From: Lachnospiraceae bacterium | Lineage (GTDB): Bacteria; Bacillota; Clostridia; Lachnospirales; Lachnospiraceae | Assembly (NCBI GenBank): GCA_017443065.1 | Contig: JAFSPF010000055.1 | Location: 1 to 36,593 of the forward strand | DNA: 36,593 nucleotides | Direction: 5' to 3' | In this document: in pieces, positions 6,832-34,214 of the stretch | Layout of the letters: every line of letters starts with the position of its first letter | Position numbering within the stretch: position 1 is the first letter of the stretch | Program-made: the position numbers and the translations under genes | Notes under the pieces: generated by a model | Told to the model about the DNA's origin: nothing | The model's database searches: none | What the model saw: only the letters and a program-made list of their open reading frames with translations

Positions 6832-6880
6832 CCCACAAGATGTCATTTTCATTTTTTTGTTCTCTTCCATATCTTGTGGG
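6832..6880. repeat. 10-base inverted repeat between the two parS sites
   Basis: CCCACAAGAT (6832-6841) and ATCTTGTGGG (6871-6880) are perfect inverted repeats separated by 29 AT-rich bases. No U-tract follows on the rsmG-transcribed strand, so it is not a classical terminator. It lies between parS 1 and parS 2. Confidence 0.6.
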
Positions 6881-6900
6881 AAGGCTTTGCGGGGCAAAAA

Positions 6901-6916
6901 TGTTTCACGTGAAACA
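6901..6916. promoter_or_regulatory. parS site 2
   Basis: TGTTTCACGTGAAACA is a second perfect parS, immediately past the rsmG stop codon (6918-6920) and 100 bases from parS 1. Confidence 0.95.
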
Positions 6917-6917
6917 T

Positions 6918-7664
6918 TCAGAGGGGGCGTTTTTTTGCCATGCCCGCCCTGCGCGGATATTTTTCCGGCGTTCCCTTCACCTTCTCCAAAAAGATCAGAC
7001 GCCGTTCGGTATCGCTGTTCGGAAGCACATAATCCTTCACCTGCAGCACCCTTCCGCCCAGAACCTCCAGCGCATGCGCCGCGCGTTCCGTTTCCTCCTC
7101 CGTCTCCCTGCTTTTATAGGCGACAAAGATCCCGCCAACCTCCAGCAGAGGCATGGCATATTCCAAAAGAACGGACAGCTCCGCCACCGCACGCGCGGTC
7201 ACAATGGAATATCCTTCCCTGTGATCCGGCTCCTGTCCCGCTTCCTCCGCGCGCAGCTGCAGACAGCGGATCCCCGCATCTTCCGGGAAAAGCGCTACGC
7301 GCACCTCCTCCAAAAAGGAAACGCGCTTCGCCTGTGCCTCGATCAGCGTCACCTTCGCTTCCCTTGCAAAGAGCTTCAGGATCATCCCGGGAAAACCCGC
7401 GCCGCTCCCGAGGTCCGCCAGCCGCTCCCCCTTTATTTCACGTGAAACTTTTTCCGGCAAAAAGGCAAGAAGCGCCAGGGAGTCCGTCACATGCAGACGG
7501 CAGAAGCCTTCGAAATCCTCGATCGCCGTCAGATTCATCTGCCGGTTCCGCTCCGATAAAAGTTCATAATACCGTCCGAGCGCTTCCTTCTTTTCCTCCG
7601 AAAGATCCATGTCCCAGGCGGAAAGATCCCTGCTTAAGCCGGACCAGTCATACGCTTTCCTCAT
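6918..7664 (-). CDS. rsmG: 16S rRNA (guanine527-N7)-methyltransferase
   Basis: This 248-residue SAM-dependent enzyme (GidB) makes m7G527 in 16S rRNA; loss gives low-level streptomycin resistance in other bacteria. The SAM-binding loop DLGSGAGFPG is at residues 84-93, preceded by HVTDSLALLAF and followed by TLIEAQAKRVSFLEEV and the VTARAVAEL motif. The start overlaps the mnmG stop by 17 bases, so translation is probably coupled. A near-consensus parS (7434-7449) lies within codons for KVSREI (about 72-77). The C-terminal tail AKKRPL is basic. Confidence 0.95.
   Translation of the reverse strand: MRKAYDWSGLSRDLSAWDMDLSEEKKEALGRYYELLSERNRQMNLTAIEDFEGFCRLHVTDSLALLAFLPEKVSREIKGERLADLGSGAGFPGMILKLFAREAKVTLIEAQAKRVSFLEEVRVALFPEDAGIRCLQLRAEEAGQEPDHREGYSIVTARAVAELSVLLEYAMPLLEVGGIFVAYKSRETEEETERAAHALEVLGGRVLQVKDYVLPNSDTERRLIFLEKVKGTPEKYPRRAGMAKKRPL
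7434..7449. promoter_or_regulatory. Near-consensus parS inside rsmG
   Basis: TATTTCACGTGAAACT matches the parS consensus at 14 of 16 positions, with the central 12 bases perfect. It sits in rsmG coding sequence, 518 bases beyond parS 2, as intragenic parS sites do in other Bacillota. Confidence 0.75.
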
Positions 7665-25042: not shown

Positions 25043-26617
25043 ATGAGAAAAACACCGGAAAAAAAGAGAAAAACGGCAGGAGGCCGTGTGGCGGCACTGT
25101 TTTTGATGTGTCTTTTTGTGCTCACGCACACGACCAGTATCCAGGCCACGGAAGGATACTGGTATTATGAGGAGTTCGGCGTGCAGGAGGCGCATGACAG
25201 GGGAATCGACGGTACCGGCATCTGGATCGGCGAGGTGGATACCATCGTCAACACGGAGGTTCCCTGGCTTTCCGAGGCGAACATCATCCTGAAGGATCAC
25301 GCGATCACGACCTATTACGGCGATGTGCCCGCCATCAGCACGGATTTCGATATCGCCTTTCACGCGACGGACATGATCTCTCTCCTGCAGGGAAACGGCG
25401 AAGGCGCGGATTCAGGCAGGGCGCCCATCGGCGTGGCGCCGGGCGCAACAATCTATCACTATGCCGCCGTGACCAGCGAGGATGATTCCTTGACCGGCGG
25501 GGATGTCTATGAGGTTGCCGTGAACTATGCCCTGCAGGACGGCGTGGATCTGATTTCAATCCCGGCCGGGGGCATGAGCGAGTACGAAAGACAGTATCCG
25601 GTCATTATGGAGGCCATCCGGCGCGGGATTCCGCTGATCGTGGCCCATTCCAATGACCGCACCTCGGTCGACTGGTATGCCGATCCCGACGCCTATACGG
25701 ACCGCGAGAAAAACCGCCTGGAGTTTCATGATATCTTAAGCGCGGACAATGACGACGAAATCTGCTACTGGTACGGTATGGTAACGGTGCAGTCGGTCGG
25801 CGAGGACCGGAACCTGCAGGATTCCTCGCGCACAGAGGATGCGGGGACGGACATTGCGGCACCCGGAGAACACATCTGGATGGAGTTCAACGACTGGGGA
25901 AAGTTTGAGGCGCATGGCGGCGGATGCTCCGCGGCAACGACGATCACGTCGGGCTTTCTTGCCCTGGCGATGCAGCAGTGGCCGGATGCCACGGGCAACC
26001 AGATCCTGCAGCTCATGGTGCGCACGGCCACCTTCCCAGAGGACAACGCCTATCAGTCCGTGCCGGTTTCGGATTCCGCCGCGGGGATTCTTGAGCTGAC
26101 AAGGGATCCGTACTTAGGCTACGGCATCATCAGCCTGGAGAATATGCTGGCAACGGATCCGTCCGTTTATCCTGACGTCAACCCCATCCTTTACAAGGAT
26201 ATTGCGCTGGCGGTCCGCAATGCGGAGGCCTCCGGAAGACCGGAGCTGCTGCAGGAGCCGGAGCTCGTGGCAGTGGCGGAGGTACTGGAAGAACAGTTGA
26301 CGGCCGCCGGAGAGGATATTCCGGATTTTCTCACACGTGTGCTGTCCGGTGGCAGCACGCCCGAAGAGGAGCCGGAGGAGACCCCGCCGGAGGAAGCAGG
26401 TGCGGGAGAGATCGAAAGCGCCGGGGAGGATGAGGAGGCGGAGACGGAAACCGCACCCGCCGTACCCGCGGCACCGGGACCGCTGGATGATGAAGAGGAA
26501 GAGGGAGGCGGCATCGGAACATATCTGCCGCTCATTGTGGCGGGCGTGGTGATTCTTGCCTGCGGCGTGCTGCTTTTGGTGCTGAAGCCGAAAAAAGACA
26601 GGACGGACGTCGATTAA
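25043..26617 (+). CDS. Divergent membrane-anchored subtilisin-like (S8) protein
   Basis: This 524-residue protein has a signal peptide (about 12-36, AALFLMCLFVLTHTTSIQA), an S8-like domain (about 40-360), an acidic Pro/Glu/Ala-rich stalk (about 425-485) and a C-terminal membrane helix (about 493-513) followed by KPKKDR, so it should sit on the outer face of the membrane. The triad is present but in altered settings: Asp66 in GEVDTIVN, His107 in HATDM (consensus HGTHV), and Ser296 in GCSAATT (consensus GTSMAAP). The oxyanion Asn204 is in HSNDR. Layout is like mycosins or other membrane-anchored subtilases, without sequence identity to a named one. GGAAGA precedes the ATG, 3 bases after exoA. 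Activity is uncertain. Confidence 0.75.
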   Translation: MRKTPEKKRKTAGGRVAALFLMCLFVLTHTTSIQATEGYWYYEEFGVQEAHDRGIDGTGIWIGEVDTIVNTEVPWLSEANIILKDHAITTYYGDVPAISTDFDIAFHATDMISLLQGNGEGADSGRAPIGVAPGATIYHYAAVTSEDDSLTGGDVYEVAVNYALQDGVDLISIPAGGMSEYERQYPVIMEAIRRGIPLIVAHSNDRTSVDWYADPDAYTDREKNRLEFHDILSADNDDEICYWYGMVTVQSVGEDRNLQDSSRTEDAGTDIAAPGEHIWMEFNDWGKFEAHGGGCSAATTITSGFLALAMQQWPDATGNQILQLMVRTATFPEDNAYQSVPVSDSAAGILELTRDPYLGYGIISLENMLATDPSVYPDVNPILYKDIALAVRNAEASGRPELLQEPELVAVAEVLEEQLTAAGEDIPDFLTRVLSGGSTPEEEPEETPPEEAGAGEIESAGEDEEAETETAPAVPAAPGPLDDEEEEGGGIGTYLPLIVAGVVILACGVLLLVLKPKKDRTDVD

Positions 26618-26632
26618 GACAGGAGGTGCGGG

Positions 26633-27550
26633 ATGGGTAAAATCAGAAGAAGATTCCTGGCGCTGACGGGAACGCTGTTGGGCGGCTCCTATCTGATCGG
26701 CGCAAATGCCTATGAGGGGCTGATAGCGGCGGGCGGCGAGAAGGAGCCGGCGAAAAAGGAATCCCTGCTGTTTCCGGAGCGGCGCAGGGAGATCTCCATC
26801 GATGCGATCGACGGGATCAGACTGCATGCGGCCTTTGTGCCCGCAGACGGGGAGGACGGGAAAAAAAAGCGCAGCTATTGCCTCCTGCTGCATGATGATA
26901 CGGCATCCCTTGCGCAGTGCGCACCCTACGCCCGGCATTATCAGGAAAAGGGGATGGACATTCTGGCGGCGGATCTGCGCGGTCACGGGGAAAGCGGCGG
27001 CAAATACCGCGGATACGGCTATGATGACCGTCTGGACGTGCTGACCTGGATCCACTGGATTTTGAAGCGGGATCCGGAGGCGCGGATTGTGATTCACGGA
27101 CTGGGCGTCGGTGCGGCCGCGGCGCTTTACGCGCTGCCGGAGCATATCCCGACGGGCGTCTATGCCGTGATTGCGGATTCTTCCTACACCACGCTTTCCG
27201 AATATCTGCTGCGTCTTCTAAAATACAGACAGAATTCCCGGATTCCGGCAAGAATCCGTCTCTTTGTGCTTCGATATGTGACAAAGCTTCGTGCGGGATA
27301 TGACATCAAAGACGCGGACGTCATGCGCGCCGTATCCCGGGCGCAGACACCGGTGCTGTTTCTGCACGGGGACGCGGACCGGACGGTTCCGGTGGAAATG
27401 TCAAGACAGCTGTATGCAAGAGCCCAGTGCACGCGGGATATCAGCATCTTCCCCGGTGCCGGGCATCTGGAGGAATATTCGCTCCATCCTTCGCGCTACC
27501 GGGAAGCCGTGGATGCCTTTCTGGAGAAACACTCACCCGACCGTCTCTGA
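26633..27550 (+). CDS. Alpha/beta-hydrolase-fold protein lacking the nucleophilic serine
   Basis: This 305-residue protein has a hydrophobic N-terminal segment (about 8-27, possible membrane anchor). The fold is recognisable from LLLHDDTAS, DILAADLRGHGESGG (about 108-122), the region of the nucleophile elbow, HGDADRTVP with Asp249 and GAGHLEE with His278. The elbow reads HGLGVGAA (155-162), where residue 158, the usual Ser of GxSxG, is Gly. Asp and His are kept, so a classical esterase reaction is unlikely unless another residue substitutes. AGGAGGTGC precedes the ATG, 15 bases after the subtilase gene. Its last 18 bases overlap the 3' end of murG on the opposite strand. Confidence 0.8.
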   Translation: MGKIRRRFLALTGTLLGGSYLIGANAYEGLIAAGGEKEPAKKESLLFPERRREISIDAIDGIRLHAAFVPADGEDGKKKRSYCLLLHDDTASLAQCAPYARHYQEKGMDILAADLRGHGESGGKYRGYGYDDRLDVLTWIHWILKRDPEARIVIHGLGVGAAAALYALPEHIPTGVYAVIADSSYTTLSEYLLRLLKYRQNSRIPARIRLFVLRYVTKLRAGYDIKDADVMRAVSRAQTPVLFLHGDADRTVPVEMSRQLYARAQCTRDISIFPGAGHLEEYSLHPSRYREAVDAFLEKHSPDRL

Positions 27551-28600
27551 GATGAGCTTCAGAACGGAAGCCACCGCATCCGGCTGGCCGCTTCCCTCCA
27601 TTTTGGAGATGTAGCGGTCCCTGTTTTGGTACACCGCATGGATTTCCTCAAATAAAACATCTTCATCCAGATCCTCGTCCTGAATCACCTCGGAAAAGCC
27701 CTGGTTTTTGAAGGACTGCGCGTTTAAGATCTGGTCACCGCGGGAGTTCTTCGCGGAGAGGGGAATCAGCACGTTCGGAATTTTTAAGGCCAGAAGCTCG
27801 CAGATCGCGTTGGCGCCCGCGCGGGAGACCACCACATCCGCCAGGGCAAAGAGATCCTTCAGCTCGTTTTTCACATATTCAAACTGGGCATAGCCGCTCA
27901 TCGTGAGCTTCAGATTGTCCATCTTGTCATCGCCGCAGATATGCACCACATTGAATTCCTGAAGAAGCTGTTCGAGGATGCCCCGGACGGCGTCGTTGAT
28001 GGAACTTGCCCCGAGCGATCCCCCGAGCACCATGACGACAGGTTTTTTGTCCGTAAAGCCGCAGAACTGCCTCCCCGCCTCGGCATTCCCCTGCCGTAGC
28101 TCCTCGCGGATGGGGGAACCGGTCAGGACCGTCTTGTCCTTGGGGAGATAGTCCATGGTCTCCGGGAAATTACAGCAGATTTTCTTTGCCTTTCCCACAC
28201 AGAGCTTGTTGGCAAGCCCCGGCGTTAAGTCCGATTCATGCAGGATGCAGGGAATCTTGTACCTCGAAGCCGCATGAATTACGGGAACGGAGACAAAGCC
28301 GCCCTTGGAAAAGATGACATCCGGCCGTTCCTGCTTTAAGATCTTTTTCGCCTGACGGTAGCCCTTCAGCACGCGGAAGGGATCCGAGAAGTTCTTGGGA
28401 TCAAAGTAACGCCTGAGCTTTCCCGCGGCAATGCCGTAGTAGCGGACGTCAAAATCCGCCAGCAGTTTATTCTCGATCCCGTCCACCGTCCCGATGTAGG
28501 CGATATCATAGCCCTGTTCCTTAAGCCCCGGAATCAGCGCTAAGTTTGGTGTGACGTGCCCGGCGCTTCCGCCGCCCGTCAGAATGATTTTTTTTGCCAA
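27533..28600 (-). CDS. murG: UDP-GlcNAc:lipid I GlcNAc transferase MurG
   Basis: MurG makes lipid II from lipid I on the inner membrane face, the last cytoplasmic step of peptidoglycan precursor synthesis. It shows the N-terminal LTGGGSAGHVTPN (residues 7-19), DVIFSKGGFVSVP, HESDLTPGLANK, GGSLGASSINDAV and the UDP-GlcNAc-binding region VVSRAGANAICELLALKIPNVLIPL. I chose TTG 28600, 8 bases after AAAGGAG (355 residues); an earlier TTG at 28627 has no such site. It stands alone on the minus strand, head-on to replication, with an extended -10 promoter and a convergent 18-base overlap with the hydrolase gene. Confidence 0.94.
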   Translation of the reverse strand: MAKKIILTGGGSAGHVTPNLALIPGLKEQGYDIAYIGTVDGIENKLLADFDVRYYGIAAGKLRRYFDPKNFSDPFRVLKGYRQAKKILKQERPDVIFSKGGFVSVPVIHAASRYKIPCILHESDLTPGLANKLCVGKAKKICCNFPETMDYLPKDKTVLTGSPIREELRQGNAEAGRQFCGFTDKKPVVMVLGGSLGASSINDAVRGILEQLLQEFNVVHICGDDKMDNLKLTMSGYAQFEYVKNELKDLFALADVVVSRAGANAICELLALKIPNVLIPLSAKNSRGDQILNAQSFKNQGFSEVIQDEDLDEDVLFEEIHAVYQNRDRYISKMEGSGQPDAVASVLKLISETVG

Positions 28601-28673: not shown

Positions 28674-28682
28674 TGCTATACT
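28674..28682 (+). promoter_or_regulatory. Sigma-factor gene extended -10 promoter
   Basis: TGCTATACT is an extended -10, 25 bases before the sigma-factor start, preceded by a 13-A tract (28653-28665) that may act as an UP-like element. It is divergent from the murG promoter and shares the A-tract with it. Confidence 0.55.
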
Positions 28683-28706
28683 ACTGGTACGGAGGTTGTT
28701 TCATCT

Positions 28707-29246
28707 GTGCTGTTCATGATGCTGTCCCTGCTCGATGATGAGCAAAGGGAAATAATTGAAAAAATCTTCAGGGAAGATAAGTCCTTCTTTTTTTATGTGG
28801 CAAGAGGCATTCTTGTGTCAAAAGAGGACGCGGAAGACGCTGTTTCGGAAGCTTTGTTGAAAATAGTCGATAATTTAGAAAAAATTTCAAAATTGCCGCG
28901 TAATAAAATGCGTGCCTATTGCATTACTATTGTAAAGAACTGTGCGAGGGAAAAACTGCGACGGGACAAAAGACTGGAATTTACGGAAAACCCCGGGCAA
29001 TATACCGAAGATTTGGGTGAAAGCACAGAAGACCGCTTTTTCAAAACCATTCCGTCGTCGGAGATGCAAACGATGTTGTCCGGTCTTTCGGAGGATGAGC
29101 AACGGCTATTGTTCCTTCGCTATGAGGAAGGAAGGAGTTACAAGGAGATCGCTTGTGTCCTGCAATGCACGGAGAACAGTGCCAGAGTGCGCGGATTCCG
29201 CATCTTGGAAAAGTTGCGAAAGCAGATGGACGGGATCATCAGATAA
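28707..29246 (+). CDS. ECF-like sigma-70 family RNA polymerase sigma factor
   Basis: This is a 179-residue two-domain sigma factor. Region 2 is seen at about 25-92 (SKEDAEDAVSEALLKIVDN, then RNKMRAYCITIVKNCAREKLRRDKR, the -10-recognition helix). Region 4 is at about 118-172 (GLSEDEQRLLFLRYEEGRSYKEIACVLQCTENSARVRGFRILEKLRK, a helix-turn-helix for the -35). No region 3 and no extra C-terminal domain are seen. GTG 28707 follows GGAGGT by 10 bases; ATG 28716 is an alternative. The next gene encodes a membrane protein of the anti-sigma type, so release by an envelope signal is likely. Codon use and A+T content differ from the origin genes, suggesting acquisition. Confidence 0.88.
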   Translation: MLFMMLSLLDDEQREIIEKIFREDKSFFFYVARGILVSKEDAEDAVSEALLKIVDNLEKISKLPRNKMRAYCITIVKNCAREKLRRDKRLEFTENPGQYTEDLGESTEDRFFKTIPSSEMQTMLSGLSEDEQRLLFLRYEEGRSYKEIACVLQCTENSARVRGFRILEKLRKQMDGIIR

Positions 29247-29266
29247 ACAAAACGAAGAGGCAGGGA

Positions 29267-30211
29267 ATGAACAAAGGCATTTCGCCAAATGTAAATAATG
29301 CAGAAGAAATGAACGCATACTTTGAACAGCTGTTTTCCGCAGCGGAAAAAAGTCTCTTGGAAGAGTTACCGCAGCGGGAGCTGTCGGACGAGGGAATCTG
29401 TGTTTTGTGTCAGCAAATCCTTGCGCTTTCCGATACCGGGAAAGAATTGTTCTACGGAAGGTATTGCTATCAGATGTCCAACGATGCCATGCAGACGGTT
29501 TTCGGAACAAGCTTTCCCGCAGGGCGGCTTCAATACTACAAATCGCTTCTGTCCTCAGCGCATAATCTGAAAGAAGGAGAAAGAATCAGTGAGCGTTCTT
29601 ACCAAAAAGCCAGTGAGATGGCACTGGATCAGGATATGGAACGGACGGAGAAAGAAGCGAACAGACAAAAGATGTTAGTATTCCCCGCCGGAACAAAAAA
29701 AATCATCCGCGTCCTGGCAAAAGGAATCGTGGCGGCGATGGTGATATTGACAGTCGGATTCACAACCGCAATAACCGTCAACGCGGAATTCAGAGAAAGA
29801 GTTATCAACTGGTTTATTGAAACATTTACAGAATACAGCAAAGTGCAAACCTCCTCCGATCAGGACATCACGATAGAGGATTTGAGATCCTATTACCCGG
29901 CGCATATTCCGGAGCGGTACACGCATACGGAAACAGTTATATTGGATATTGAAATTGCATATTATTATGAGGATCCTGAGGGAAACACGCTGTATATTCG
30001 TTTCAGTATACCAGGGACAGAGGTCGGAATAAACACAGAAAACATGGAAATAAAAGCATTGGAATTCAGAGGGGAAGAAGCGTTCATGGCATTTGATGAC
30101 GAAAACAGAGGCACATTCGCATTTGTAGTGGACGGTATTCCCATATTTATCGGCGGTCAGATGAGTGAAGAAGAAGCGATGGCAATCGCAAACGGAATAG
30201 AGAAACGATAA
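29267..30211 (+). CDS. Membrane anti-sigma factor-like protein with DUF4367-type C-terminal domain
   Basis: This 314-residue protein has a cytoplasmic helical N-terminal half (about 1-145), one membrane helix (about 150-170, GIVAAMVILTVGFTTAITV) and an extracytoplasmic domain beginning YYPAHIPERYTHTET, with repeated strands (GNTLYIRFSIPG, VVDGIPIFIGG) and the ending SEEEAMAIANGIE. That C-terminal pattern is DUF4367, often found in proteins encoded next to ECF sigma factors. The cytoplasmic half would bind the sigma factor. ATG 29267 with GAGGCAGGGA upstream is preferred; the frame is open further upstream through the sigma-factor gene but without support. It lies 20 bases after the sigma gene and ends before a strong terminator. 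Confidence 0.8.
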   Translation: MNKGISPNVNNAEEMNAYFEQLFSAAEKSLLEELPQRELSDEGICVLCQQILALSDTGKELFYGRYCYQMSNDAMQTVFGTSFPAGRLQYYKSLLSSAHNLKEGERISERSYQKASEMALDQDMERTEKEANRQKMLVFPAGTKKIIRVLAKGIVAAMVILTVGFTTAITVNAEFRERVINWFIETFTEYSKVQTSSDQDITIEDLRSYYPAHIPERYTHTETVILDIEIAYYYEDPEGNTLYIRFSIPGTEVGINTENMEIKALEFRGEEAFMAFDDENRGTFAFVVDGIPIFIGGQMSEEEAMAIANGIEKR

Positions 30212-30236
30212 ACACTCGCGTTTCTTTCCAATGAAC

Positions 30237-30293
30237 AAAACCCTTTTGTCCGCTCTTTCGTAATTTTGAAGGAACGGACAGAAGGGTTTTTCT
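30237..30293 (+). terminator. Terminator of the sigma/anti-sigma operon
   Basis: A 16-base-pair stem with one T-G pair (30237-30252 with 30275-30290) encloses a 22-base loop and ends in TTTTTCTT. It separates the sigma/anti-sigma operon from the next genes. Confidence 0.85.
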
Positions 30294-30328
30294 TCAGCGA
30301 ATAAGATTTCTAAAACTTTTCTAAACCC

Positions 30329-30352
30329 TGTAACAAAACGGCAGGTTCGTGC
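30329..30352 (+). promoter_or_regulatory. Possible ECF-type promoter for the exported-protein gene
   Basis: TGTAAC (30329-30334) and CGTGC (30348-30352) resemble AAC-type -35 and CGT-type -10 elements used by ECF sigma factors, upstream of the gene at 30400. The 13-base spacer is shorter than the usual 15-17, so this is only a candidate. No clear housekeeping promoter is seen. Confidence 0.25.
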
Positions 30353-30399
30353 ATCAGTTATATGTAAATGAAATAAGCACCCCAAAAAAGGAGGCTACT

Positions 30400-30621
30400 A
30401 TGTTCAAAAAGGTTTTACTTGCGGGATTTGTTTCAATTCTTTTGCTGGGTCAATCCATTCCGATCAGTGCTGCGACGGTGACGTCAACAACCATTTCCGA
30501 TGTGGCGGGGCTCAGGTGGAGCGACACGCTGTCTTACAGTATCCATATATCTTCCAACAAAAACACGATTACATCCATAATGAGCGTAGTAGCATTTAAC
30601 ACAAATACGTTTCAAAAATGA
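30400..30621 (+). CDS. Small exported protein, possibly truncated
   Basis: This 73-residue protein has a clear signal peptide (MFKKVLLAGFVSILLLGQ...ISAA, about 1-25) and a mature part of about 48 residues beginning TVTSTTISDVAGLRWSDT. The mature part resembles the start of small secreted beta-sandwich-like proteins I associate with DUF6147 in Clostridia, which are about twice as long, so the gene may be shortened. AAGGAGG precedes the ATG by 5 bases. It lies between the sigma/anti-sigma operon and the lipoprotein gene, and could be a target of that sigma factor. There is no cysteine for lipid attachment. Confidence 0.6.
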   Translation: MFKKVLLAGFVSILLLGQSIPISAATVTSTTISDVAGLRWSDTLSYSIHISSNKNTITSIMSVVAFNTNTFQK

Positions 30622-30652
30622 CGAAGCATTTTGCTCAAAGGAGATGACGTAG

Positions 30653-32770
30653 ATGGGAAAAAAACAGTATCTTGAACGGGTATTGGTTTTTGGGATAGCG
30701 CTTTTTATACTTTCCGGCTGTGTTTTTGGGGAGGCAACTGGCTCCCGTATGGCAGAAAACCCTGGTGAGATGGAAACGGCAGGCAGTACGATCAGCGTGC
30801 GCATGGAAACCCCGGAAATAACAGAGGTTCCGCTTGGGGCAGTATTTAACAGAATTTGCGGCATTCTCCCCTACGGAAACGGCATGACGGTGATAGGTAC
30901 AAAAGATGGTACGGTTCGATTGCTGAATATGGATTCTGAAGGAAACCACGCTGACAGCATTGCATTAAAAGCGCCCGACACAGCCTATCAGATTTATGAT
31001 GTGGGTGGCGATGAGGAGCAAAACATTTATATCTTATATGGCATAAGCACGAAACAGCCCGGCATAAAGTTAATCACATACAATCATCAGGGCAATATGT
31101 TGAAGGAACAGGAAATACCGGCAACAAGAAACTATATGCGGGGACCGTTAATGATAAATGACGATACAAAACTCTTATGGAACGAGGAAAAAATCATTGT
31201 TTGCAGGAAAGATGACTGTATCTCCTTCACGCCGTTTTCCTCCGGCGAAACGATTCATACTATCACAATCGACGCGCAGCAGAGGTGTCATGTGACGGTC
31301 TCAAAGGAAAATAAAGCGGGACTTTACCTTTTTGATCCGGACACTGGAGAAGCAAAAGAAGAAATACTTTCAGAAGAAACAGGTCTCACGGCATATACCC
31401 AATGCATAAGTGAGGACGGAAAGATATTTATCAATACAAACGAGCGCCTTATAGAATACGACGCGGAAAAAAAGCAACTGTTACGTCGTTTTGACTGGGG
31501 TGCCATAAATGGCGGGCAGATCAAGCACCTGGTTGAACATGGAAACAACCAATTTACGTGCGTAAATGCGATAACACCGACGGTTTATTTCATATCGACA
31601 ATTGAAAAAACCACAGAGCGAAAAGTCATCATCATAGGAGCTTTACACGGTTATACTACAGGAAAGTTGGAGAGATTTGTTTCATTCTTTAACATGCATA
31701 ATGAGGACTATTTTGCAAAAATCAAGTATTACGCAGAACCGGATCTGTTACGTGCAGAATGGGTCACAGAGGATGTGCCCAGTGTTGTGAATGTGTATGA
31801 TATGGACATTCCGCAAAATGATGATTTGTTTGTTGATTTACTTCCCTATCTGGAACGCGGAGATGGAATCACAAAAGATGATATTACAGAAAGTATGCTT
31901 CGCTCGTTTCTTTGCGGAGAAAAACTATTCGTTATTCCCTCCGCGGTTCAAATTGAAACGCTGTATGCCCGGACGGAAGATGTGGGAGATCGGATTGGTT
32001 GGACCATGGAAGAAATGCAGGATCTTTTGGCACAAAACGGAGACGCATATCAGCCATTTCCCGGATGGCTTACTCCTATTGAACTGATGAATTGGCTGAT
32101 TTCGTCTGATCTTGGAAGATTTGTGGATTGGGAAAAAGCAAATTGTAGTTTTGACAGTCAGGAGTTCATAGATGAGTTAATGTTGTGCGCAGAAAAAGCG
32201 CCTAAAACGTATCAGCCGTCTCCGAATAGTAAAGTTGGCGTTCATGGCAATGAAGTCCTGCTGGCACCGGAGTGTTTACAAGCGGTAATGAATTTTCCTC
32301 CCGTGCTTCGATGCGCATTTGATGGAAAACCGCTGACGTTTATCGGATTTCCAAACCCCAACGGAAACAATGGCAGTTATTTTTGCGAGGAATCGTTTGG
32401 AATGTTGTTTGGCATACCCGCAACTGCGCCAGATAAAGAGGGCGGATGGGAGATATTAAAAGTCATGCTTTCGGAAGAATGGCAGAGAGAGGAGCATTCT
32501 TTTCCTGTCAACAGATATGTGCTTGAGGAAAGGATGCTGAATTTGAGTTCAGAGACGGAGTATGGCGAGCAGGCACTTACAGACGAAGAAATCAGTAAGT
32601 GTTGGCAGTTAATCAACGGGACAGAGGTATATCTTCGCGAAGATGTCAAGGTTGCCACGATTATTGGGGAGGAAGCAGAAGGCTTTTTTTCCGGAAAGCA
32701 GACAGCCGAAGAAGCCGCAAAGATGATTCAATCCAGGGTGACCTTATATTTACAGGAGCAGTTTCAATAG
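30653..32770 (+). CDS. Lipoprotein with propeller-like region fused to an ABC-type solute-binding domain
   Basis: This 705-residue lipoprotein has an N-terminal signal with lipobox LSGC (20-23; Cys23 would be lipidated). Residues about 65-315 carry repeated strand units of the type GxxxVIGTKDGTVRLLN, QNIYILYG and GKIFINTNERLIEYD, consistent with a beta-propeller. Residues about 322-705 match the extracellular solute-binding protein family 1: KVIIIGALHGYTTGKLERFVSFFNMHNEDY at the start and QTAEEAAKMIQSRVTLYLQEQ at the end. No ABC permease or ATPase gene is adjacent, so it is more likely a surface sensor or a binding protein for a distant transporter. AAAGGAG precedes the ATG. It ends before a bidirectional terminator. 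Confidence 0.78.
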   Translation: MGKKQYLERVLVFGIALFILSGCVFGEATGSRMAENPGEMETAGSTISVRMETPEITEVPLGAVFNRICGILPYGNGMTVIGTKDGTVRLLNMDSEGNHADSIALKAPDTAYQIYDVGGDEEQNIYILYGISTKQPGIKLITYNHQGNMLKEQEIPATRNYMRGPLMINDDTKLLWNEEKIIVCRKDDCISFTPFSSGETIHTITIDAQQRCHVTVSKENKAGLYLFDPDTGEAKEEILSEETGLTAYTQCISEDGKIFINTNERLIEYDAEKKQLLRRFDWGAINGGQIKHLVEHGNNQFTCVNAITPTVYFISTIEKTTERKVIIIGALHGYTTGKLERFVSFFNMHNEDYFAKIKYYAEPDLLRAEWVTEDVPSVVNVYDMDIPQNDDLFVDLLPYLERGDGITKDDITESMLRSFLCGEKLFVIPSAVQIETLYARTEDVGDRIGWTMEEMQDLLAQNGDAYQPFPGWLTPIELMNWLISSDLGRFVDWEKANCSFDSQEFIDELMLCAEKAPKTYQPSPNSKVGVHGNEVLLAPECLQAVMNFPPVLRCAFDGKPLTFIGFPNPNGNNGSYFCEESFGMLFGIPATAPDKEGGWEILKVMLSEEWQREEHSFPVNRYVLEERMLNLSSETEYGEQALTDEEISKCWQLINGTEVYLREDVKVATIIGEEAEGFFSGKQTAEEAAKMIQSRVTLYLQEQFQ

Positions 32771-32801
32771 ATGAAATTAAAGATAATTGCAATCGTCAAA
32801 C

Positions 32802-32832
32802 AAAAAACCGCGGGCGGCACCCGCGGTTTTTT
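32802..32832. terminator. Bidirectional terminator between lipoprotein gene and pgi
   Basis: A perfect 13-base-pair stem (32802-32814 with 32820-32832) closes a 5-base loop, with A6 and T6 ends, so it can terminate both convergent transcripts. Confidence 0.92.
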
Positions 32833-32849: not shown

Positions 32850-34214
32850 TCACAGCCGCTCCTTCAGCGCCTTTGTCATCTCCTCATACCCGGGCTTTCC
32901 GAGCAGGGCAAACATGTTTTTCTTATAGCTCTCGACGCCCGGCTGGTCAAATGGATTGACCCCTAAAAGATAACCGGAGACGCCGCAGGCAAATTCGAAG
33001 AAATAGAAGACCTGTCCCAGCGTGTAGGCATCCTGCGCGGGAAGATGAAGCATCAGGTTCGGCGTACCGCCGTCGGTGTGCGCAAGAACGGTTCCGTTCA
33101 TCGCCTGCCGGTTGACGTATTCCACGGTCTGTCCGGCAAGATAGTTAAGCCCGTCAAGGTCTTTGGAATCCGAGCCGATCACGAGGGAGCGGCGGCTCTT
33201 CTCCACGGAGAGCACCGTTTCAAAGAGGACGCGGTTGCCGTCCTGGATGAACTGCCCCATGGAATGTAAGTCCGTCGTGAAGTCGACGCTTGCGGGGAAA
33301 ATGCCCTTCTGGTCCTTGCCCTCGGATTCCCCGAAGAGCTGCTTCCACCATTCGGAGAGGGAGTGCATCGTCGGTTCGTAATTGACGAGGATTTCCACGG
33401 TTTTTCCCTTGCGGTAAAGGATATTACGCACGGCCGCATAGAGCAGGGGGCCGTTTTCGTCATAGGCCGTATCCAGCGCGTGGGAGCGCATGTCCTGTGC
33501 GCCCTTCATGAGCTGGTCGATGTCCGTGCCGGAAACCGCGATCGGTAAGAGTCCCACGGCGGTCAGGACGCTGAAGCGTCCGCCCACATCATCCGGCACG
33601 ACAAAGGCTTCGTAGCCTTTTTCATCCACCTCCGTTTTCAGGGCGCCCCTGGCCTTGTCCGTGGTGGCGTAGATGCGCTTTGCGGCCTCTTCCTCCCCGT
33701 ATTTCCGGATCAGGATGTCCTTGAAAATGCGGAAGGCGATGCCGGGCTCCGTCGTGGTGCCGGATTTGGAAATAATATTCACGGAAAAATCCCGGTCGCC
33801 GACGAGATCGATGAGATCCGCCAGATAGGAGGCCGAGATGGAGTTGCCGCAGAAATAAATCTCGGGAGAGGGGGCGCCGTCCGCGCCGCGCCTGTCCTTC
33901 GGGGAGCTGTTATAAAAGGCGCCGTGCGTAAATTCGATCGCGGCCCTTGCCCCCAAATAGGAGCCGCCGATGCCGATGACGATGAGCACCTCGGAGTCCT
34001 GACGGATCTTCTCCGCGGCCTTTTTGATCCGTGCAAATTCCTCCTTGTCATAATCCACGGGAAGATTGATCCAGCCCAGAAAATCATTGCCCGCGCCGAT
34101 GCCGCGCGTCAGCGTGTCCTTGGCGCTGAGGGTCTGGATCTCCATCTGTGCGATTTCCGATGCGGAAACAAAGGGGGTCAGTTTGGAGGTGTCAAAACGG
34201 ATGTCTTTGCTCAT
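32850..34214 (-). CDS. pgi: Glucose-6-phosphate isomerase
   Basis: This 454-residue cytoplasmic enzyme interconverts glucose-6-phosphate and fructose-6-phosphate. Family motifs are [16 protein letters not shown], the sugar-phosphate loop [31 protein letters not shown] and [11 protein letters not shown]. The length matches the short Bacillota/Thermotoga-like type. The start has AGGAGCAG, and only one base separates it from the mtnN stop, so it is the last gene of the luxS-mtnN-pgi operon. Confidence 0.95.

Follow-up and report, generated by a model that had tools for sequence, protein, structure and literature searches.

Gene content of the island

We analysed a 36,593-nt stretch of DNA from a Lachnospiraceae bacterium (assembly GCA_017443065.1, contig JAFSPF010000055.1), here called the window, which is contig C32 of a 2.83-Mb genome in 144 contigs. 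The focus was an island of four plus-strand genes flanked by two minus-strand genes, murG (27533-28597 or slightly longer) and pgi (32850-34214). The island encodes an extracytoplasmic function (ECF)-type sigma factor, a transmembrane anti-sigma factor with a DUF4367 domain, a 73-aa exported protein and a 705-aa lipoprotein (30653-32770). A preliminary description had named these four genes and an A+T-rich block, and both points were borne out, by the Pfam matches and by-eye signals given below (for the lipoprotein, the lipobox LSGC) and by a GC content of 0.42-0.45 in the island genes versus 0.55-0.60 in the flanking murG, pgi, S8 peptidase and hydrolase genes (third-position GC, 0.45-0.53 versus 0.68-0.76). 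Its claim that promoters bound the block found little backing, and its observation of the island as a whole is partly confirmed.

The sigma protein matched Sigma70_r4_2 (2.1e-14), Sigma70_r4 (3.2e-11) and Sigma70_r2 (2.1e-9), all above the cut-offs. No region 3 was listed in Pfam at E <= 1, as for the ECF class, and the protein thus has the ECF composition of regions 2 and 4 without region 3. A ribosome-binding site, GGAGG, lies at 28691-28695. The features of the sigma/anti-sigma pair are as follows.

28707..29246, plus strand: gene for an ECF-type sigma factor of 179 aa, opening with GTG (Pfam; start backed by 11 aligned relatives)
29267..30211, plus strand: transmembrane anti-sigma factor gene, 314 aa, starting 20 nt past the sigma stop codon (DUF4367, 2.1e-5)
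29387..29563, plus strand: putative divergent sigma region 4 domain of the anti-sigma factor, aa 41-99 (profile and alignment comparisons)
29711..29770, plus strand: transmembrane segment, about aa 149-168 (hydrophobic stretch in the alignment; model helix 150-168)
29777..29830, plus strand: V-N-A signal-peptidase-like site and the next helix, aa 171-188 (alignment; model helix 173-188)
29891..30199, plus strand: DUF4367 extracytoplasmic domain, aa 209-311 (Pfam; models like the RseB C-terminal domain)

A sigma-region-4-like domain in the anti-sigma factor

ECF pairs that sense the surface are common; the most notable and new feature, which the preliminary description could not see, is a region 4 domain carried by the anti-sigma factor. 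Judged by sequence comparison, the cytoplasmic part of this protein holds a divergent copy of sigma region 4, a homology that was supported in several comparisons and was weak or negative in some others. Searching 391 genomes with a profile of the anti-sigma N-terminus returned two further anti-sigma factors of this kind and then sigma factors. The five anti-sigma places were followed by 72 rows; among the 27 best-scoring of these, 26 carried a Pfam region 4 (25 by each model), with two of the 27 rows identical (L121, L122) and one a contig-end fragment (L114). The match of the protein on contig C76 of the same genome is by construction, as that protein sits in the profile. The hhalign test used 11 of the 13 anti-sigma rows, omitting L074, which is without such a domain, and a fusion on contig C23, whose region 4 is obvious; profile A5 comprised seven of the 11.

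The copy has lost most of the basic residues of the recognition helix (2.5 lysines or arginines per 21 residues versus 6.75), and it does not present a basic recognition helix for DNA. The domain nevertheless persists in separate families, in which L47, L54, Y66 and L95 are invariant. Among 118 genomes of the class, 24 encoded DUF4367 proteins at 30 places, two of them in the window's own genome. The other 28 scored no more than 3.7 bits with the N-terminal profile, and the region-4-like domain was absent from all 24 that could be judged, the remaining four (L141, L149, L151, L158) being too short to show an N-terminus. In the window's protein 148 aa precede the membrane segment, which starts at about aa 40-100 in other DUF4367 proteins; a profile of 17 short N-termini found no significant match in it to the usual DUF4367 N-terminus, which has about 40-85 aa ahead of the membrane segment. 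We found no description of a membrane anti-sigma factor with a region 4 domain in the open-licence papers searched.

The rest of the protein would suit a surface-sensing switch. DUF4367 scored 25.4 bits against a Pfam cut-off of 22.1, and DUF4179 was not listed for this protein in Pfam at E <= 10. Just past the membrane segment, V171 N172 A173 E174 F175 R176 were identical in all eight aligned rows, and a V-x-A-type site in this position was seen by eye in most other DUF4367 proteins. In RsiV-type anti-sigma factors an amphipathic helix shields this site; the helix that follows it here is seen in the model, and its hydrophobic moment was not above that of shuffles in 8/8 sequences. The extracytoplasmic DUF4367 domain models like the C-terminal domain of RseB.

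A further gene of the same genome (L015:7409-8113, plus strand, contig C23) joins region 4 directly to a membrane segment and DUF4367, region 2 being missing. Its region 4 is still recognised by Pfam (8.7e-10) and shares 66% identity over 56 aa with the sigma factor of the same contig. This fusion could be a deletion product, a working protein or an assembly error. It is adjoined by a converging, intact sigma/anti-sigma pair with a solute-binding protein (SBP) lipoprotein.

Recurrence of the pair and its neighbours

Relatives of the anti-sigma factor occurred at four places in the window's own genome (E <= 1), in 2/150 genomes at the family level and in 7/61 at the genus level, the named genomes among them being Butyrivibrio. 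We compared 15 loci, comprising the anti-sigma factors with a region 4 domain and the C23 fusion: four from the own genome, eight from six other genomes of the genus, and one each from the distant relatives G566, G486 and G945. An exported or lipoprotein-like gene (signal peptides by eye) starts within about 200 nt downstream of the anti-sigma gene in ten of them: the window, C76, the C23 fusion, G205 (one of two), G162, G154, G186 (one of two), G204, G566 and G945. No such gene follows at the C23 pair, the other G205 and G186 loci, G169 or G486. Near-duplicates (G154/G162, G186/G204 and G205/G169) reduce the number of independent cases to fewer than 15. The downstream proteins vary in size and kind among loci, and an anti-sigma factor without the region 4 domain (G039) shows the same gene order.

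A propeller-SBP or SBP lipoprotein adjoins two of the 15 loci (the window and the C23 pair) and lies within 5 kb at two more (a propeller-SBP lipoprotein, 3.4 kb from the pair at L072 and 4.9 kb at L069). At the cut-offs used, the window's own genome was the only one of the 61 genus-level genomes with both the lipoprotein and the anti-sigma factor, and the other genomes sampled did not yield the co-occurrence of the exact four genes that the preliminary description had proposed to look for. The recurrent arrangement, by eye, is a sigma factor, an anti-sigma factor and then a variable exported or lipoprotein-like gene.

At the C76 pair, two consecutive small exported ORFs follow (L016:1651-2596), the first with a weak match to a bacterial immunoglobulin-like domain (0.00046, below the cut-off). 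At L067:838-14859 and L071:4211-5407 the pair lies near a relaxase gene, and L067 also has an integrase and an actin-like gene; this setting is probably a mobilisable element.

The exported protein and the lipoprotein family

Two further genes complete the island.

30400..30621, plus strand: 73-aa exported protein (signal-peptide-like start, by eye)
30653..31606, plus strand: N-terminal part of the lipoprotein, aa 1-318, with the lipobox cysteine at aa 23 and then a propeller-like region (family profile against solved chains)
31607..32770, plus strand: C-terminal part of the lipoprotein, aa 319-705, solute-binding-protein-like (family profile)

The 73-aa protein matched no Pfam family at E <= 1, and a search of its own genome returned only itself; a by-eye alignment of four proteins suggests that it may be a shortened form of the exported proteins that follow other such anti-sigma factors. 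The lipoprotein by itself matched no Pfam family. A profile of its 24-member family matched beta-propeller chains at about 113-311 (best about 5e-13) and solute-binding proteins at 328-713 (CbpC, 4.5e-45), and SBP_bac_1 was present in 19 of the 24 members, the window's protein not among them. The reading of this lipoprotein as propeller plus SBP, including its SBP domain, is thus backed by the family profile and not by the window's protein alone.

The family was found at ten places in the own genome (E <= 0.001, itself included), in 14/150 family-level genomes (E <= 1e-20) and in 4/61 genus-level genomes (E <= 1e-30); no viral relatives were matched. No ATP-binding cassette (ABC) permease gene lies beside the window's lipoprotein, whose neighbours are pgi, murG, the hydrolase and the S8 peptidase. 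Elsewhere (neighbours named by eye except where Pfam-matched), family members have as neighbours sugar-ABC permeases and an HlyD-like protein at L081, L083 and L022, an agr-like locus with AgrB at L084, and small exported proteins at L018, L076 and L078. The lipoprotein thus belongs to a family of surface proteins with a life of its own that only sometimes adjoins the switch, and the analysis sets this family apart from it.

Three of these settings are of interest in themselves. At L081, L083 and L022 the propeller-SBP lipoproteins are lined up with a pair of sugar-type ABC permeases and an HlyD-like adaptor, by eye an unusual mix of importer and exporter parts. AgrB and a LytTR response regulator at L084:6257-14059 have as neighbours two SBP lipoproteins in tandem and a small exported protein. 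Near an SBP lipoprotein of L021, two small ORFs (1591-1899 and 6870-7184) have similar starts and a leader-peptide-like LDGVAGG stretch; the second had no Pfam match.

Transcription units and setting

28674..28682, plus strand: candidate extended -10-like element TGCTATACT ahead of the sigma gene (by eye; absent from the promoter scan list)
30237..30290, plus strand: strong hairpin terminator in the interval between the anti-sigma and exported genes (-34.2 kcal/mol, z -7.4)
32802..32832, both strands: end terminator with a T-run on both strands, common to pgi (-20.3 kcal/mol, z -5.3)

The hairpin between the anti-sigma gene and the exported gene makes it probable that the island forms two transcription units, one for the sigma and anti-sigma factors and one for the exported protein and lipoprotein. 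The bidirectional terminator claimed earlier for the end of the block does fold, with the energy listed above; neither hairpin was listed by a simple terminator scan. The promoters said to bound the block are weak: a promoter scan gave three promoter-like sites in 4.5 kb versus 7.2 expected and none upstream of the sigma gene or the 30400 gene. A promoter motif common to these two upstream regions, for which the preliminary description had proposed a search, was likewise rejected: the best two-box match was 10/12, with a mean of 10.2 in first-order resampled controls, 50/60 of which were as good. An autoregulated ECF promoter at the sigma gene was also set aside, because several loci show by eye only housekeeping-like extended -10 elements.

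The relative G203 keeps the order pgi, murG, hydrolase and S8 peptidase (88, 78, 48 and 52% identity, respectively). Its murG/pgi region lacks the four-gene island and has an NYN-type gene in its place, a relative of which is present elsewhere in the window's own genome; a 29%-identical lipoprotein lies about 3.6 kb past murG. Flanking repeats of a recent insertion were not seen, the repeats being two short two-copy families only. We did not accept the low GC as proof of recent transfer, because other lipoproteins of the own genome (C75, 0.434; C12, 0.426) and of G203 (C3, 0.434) are equally GC-poor. The S8 peptidase adjoining murG (25043-26617 of the window) is membrane-anchored, subtilase-like and conserved in G203.

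A proposed switch and its alternatives

We propose that the pair works as an RsiV-like proteolytic switch with a cytoplasmic grip through region 4 mimicry, a proposal to which we give an even chance. At rest, the region-4-like domain would take the place of region 4 and so hold the sigma factor, through contact with sigma region 2 or on the face of the polymerase to which region 4 binds. A signal received by the outer DUF4367 domain would then expose the V-x-A site to signal peptidase, after which a site-2 protease would release the sigma factor. The 73-aa protein and the propeller-SBP lipoprotein, probably transcribed separately, would be candidate targets or ligand-presenting partners that vary by locus, and what such neighbours sense, if anything, is a guess. 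As to origin, we put forward more tentatively, as a possibility rather than an expectation, that such anti-sigma factors arose when a copy of region 4 from the sigma factor itself was grafted onto a membrane protein with DUF4367, and that they inhibit as a tethered decoy, stripped of its DNA-binding charge, which fills the place of region 4 until proteolysis.

The main alternative, which we regard as somewhat unlikely, sees in the domain the remnant of a sigma-anti-sigma fusion of the IutY/ECF243 or ECF48/52/53 type after loss of region 2; the domain would then do little, with aa 100-148 doing the inhibiting. Whole fusions of this sort are known from what excerpts of PMC8999054 report, and the C23 gene is a fusion of region 4, membrane segment and DUF4367 without region 2 in the very same genome. 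Also in its favour, in the distant relatives G566, G486 and G945 the domain may be followed by a stretch resembling the usual short DUF4367 N-terminus (hhalign E 0.00045; 0.034 without the membrane-near tail), by which the domain would be an addition and not a replacement; this hint comes mostly from the membrane-near tail. In the window's lineage, however, the usual N-terminus is undetectable, and the domain has kept its invariant leucines and tyrosine while losing its DNA-binding charges, as would be expected of a protein-binding role.

The sensing model of the preliminary description, in which an external ligand is bound by the lipoprotein or the 73-aa protein, which then signals through the anti-sigma factor and is also among the sigma factor's targets, is improbable in that form, and the interpretation overall is partly supported. 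What stands is a sigma factor with a membrane anti-sigma factor whose outer domain models like the sensor-side RseB domain, together with some support for the link to exported proteins from the exported-type genes directly downstream in ten of the 15 loci. The part assigned to the lipoprotein, as sensor or as target, found no support. SBP-type proteins generally bind ligands, and the lipoprotein adjoins the pair in the window, as an SBP lipoprotein gene precedes the sigma and anti-sigma genes on C23, with the L072 and L069 lipoproteins not far away. Against this, the exported genes form a probable separate unit behind a terminator, no motif joins the two upstream regions, the genes downstream of the anti-sigma factor differ among loci, and the lipoprotein family lies mostly away from such switches, in the own genome and in G203, often beside sugar-ABC permeases or other exported genes. 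It is very improbable that the freed anti-sigma fragment is a co-factor working with sigma region 2, like SigO/RsoA of Bacillus subtilis: split sigma domains acting jointly are known (PMC8103513, in the sections covering them), but here the sigma factor has its own region 4 and the anti-sigma copy is stripped of most recognition-helix basic residues.

Relation to known systems

The proposed switch most resembles RsiV/sigma-V of B. subtilis, whose DUF4179 anti-sigma factor is a lysozyme receptor according to extracts of PMC6066255. As described there, an ECF sigma gene stands beside a single-pass anti-sigma factor in which the membrane segment leads directly into a signal-peptidase-like site and a helix, with the sensor outside. 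In contrast to RsiV, the protein described here has DUF4367 in place of DUF4179, a region-4-like cytoplasmic domain and a modelled RseB-like sensor instead of a lysozyme-binding domain, and its cleavage is a proposal. A degenerate sigma-like domain for protein binding, as proposed here, has a parallel in PhyR, the sigma mimic of the general stress response in alphaproteobacteria (PMC4598750, PMC8103513). PhyR is an anti-anti-sigma factor with region-2- and region-4-like parts and a receiver domain, whereas the present protein is a membrane-bound, presumed anti-sigma factor with region 4 only; Pfam listed neither a receiver domain nor a region-2-like part for it. Like the fusions IutY/ECF243, ECF48, ECF52 and ECF53 it joins sigma sequence to a transmembrane regulatory part, but those retain a whole sigma factor, as far as the excerpts of PMC8999054 go, and here an intact sigma factor adjoins a protein with region 4 only.

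The modelled likeness of the outer domain recalls RseB/MucB with RseA/MucA, except that in Gram-negative bacteria RseB is a periplasmic protein in its own right and the domain here is within the anti-sigma factor. We found no paper on DUF4367 among the open-licence papers searched, and the model suggests a first structural lead for this domain. The C-terminal half of the lipoprotein is, by its family profile, like that of sugar-binding ABC lipoproteins (SBP_bac_1; CbpC), from which it differs in its extra propeller-like N-terminal half and in an island without a permease gene.

ECF signalling takes its input mainly through membrane anti-sigma factors, and the origin of new pairs without cross-talk is an open question of the field, as set out in parts of PMC7406223. 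If the grafting proposal is true, an anti-sigma factor could be made from its own target, and one direct route to new pairs would be to duplicate part of a sigma gene, strip its DNA contacts and tether the product to the membrane.

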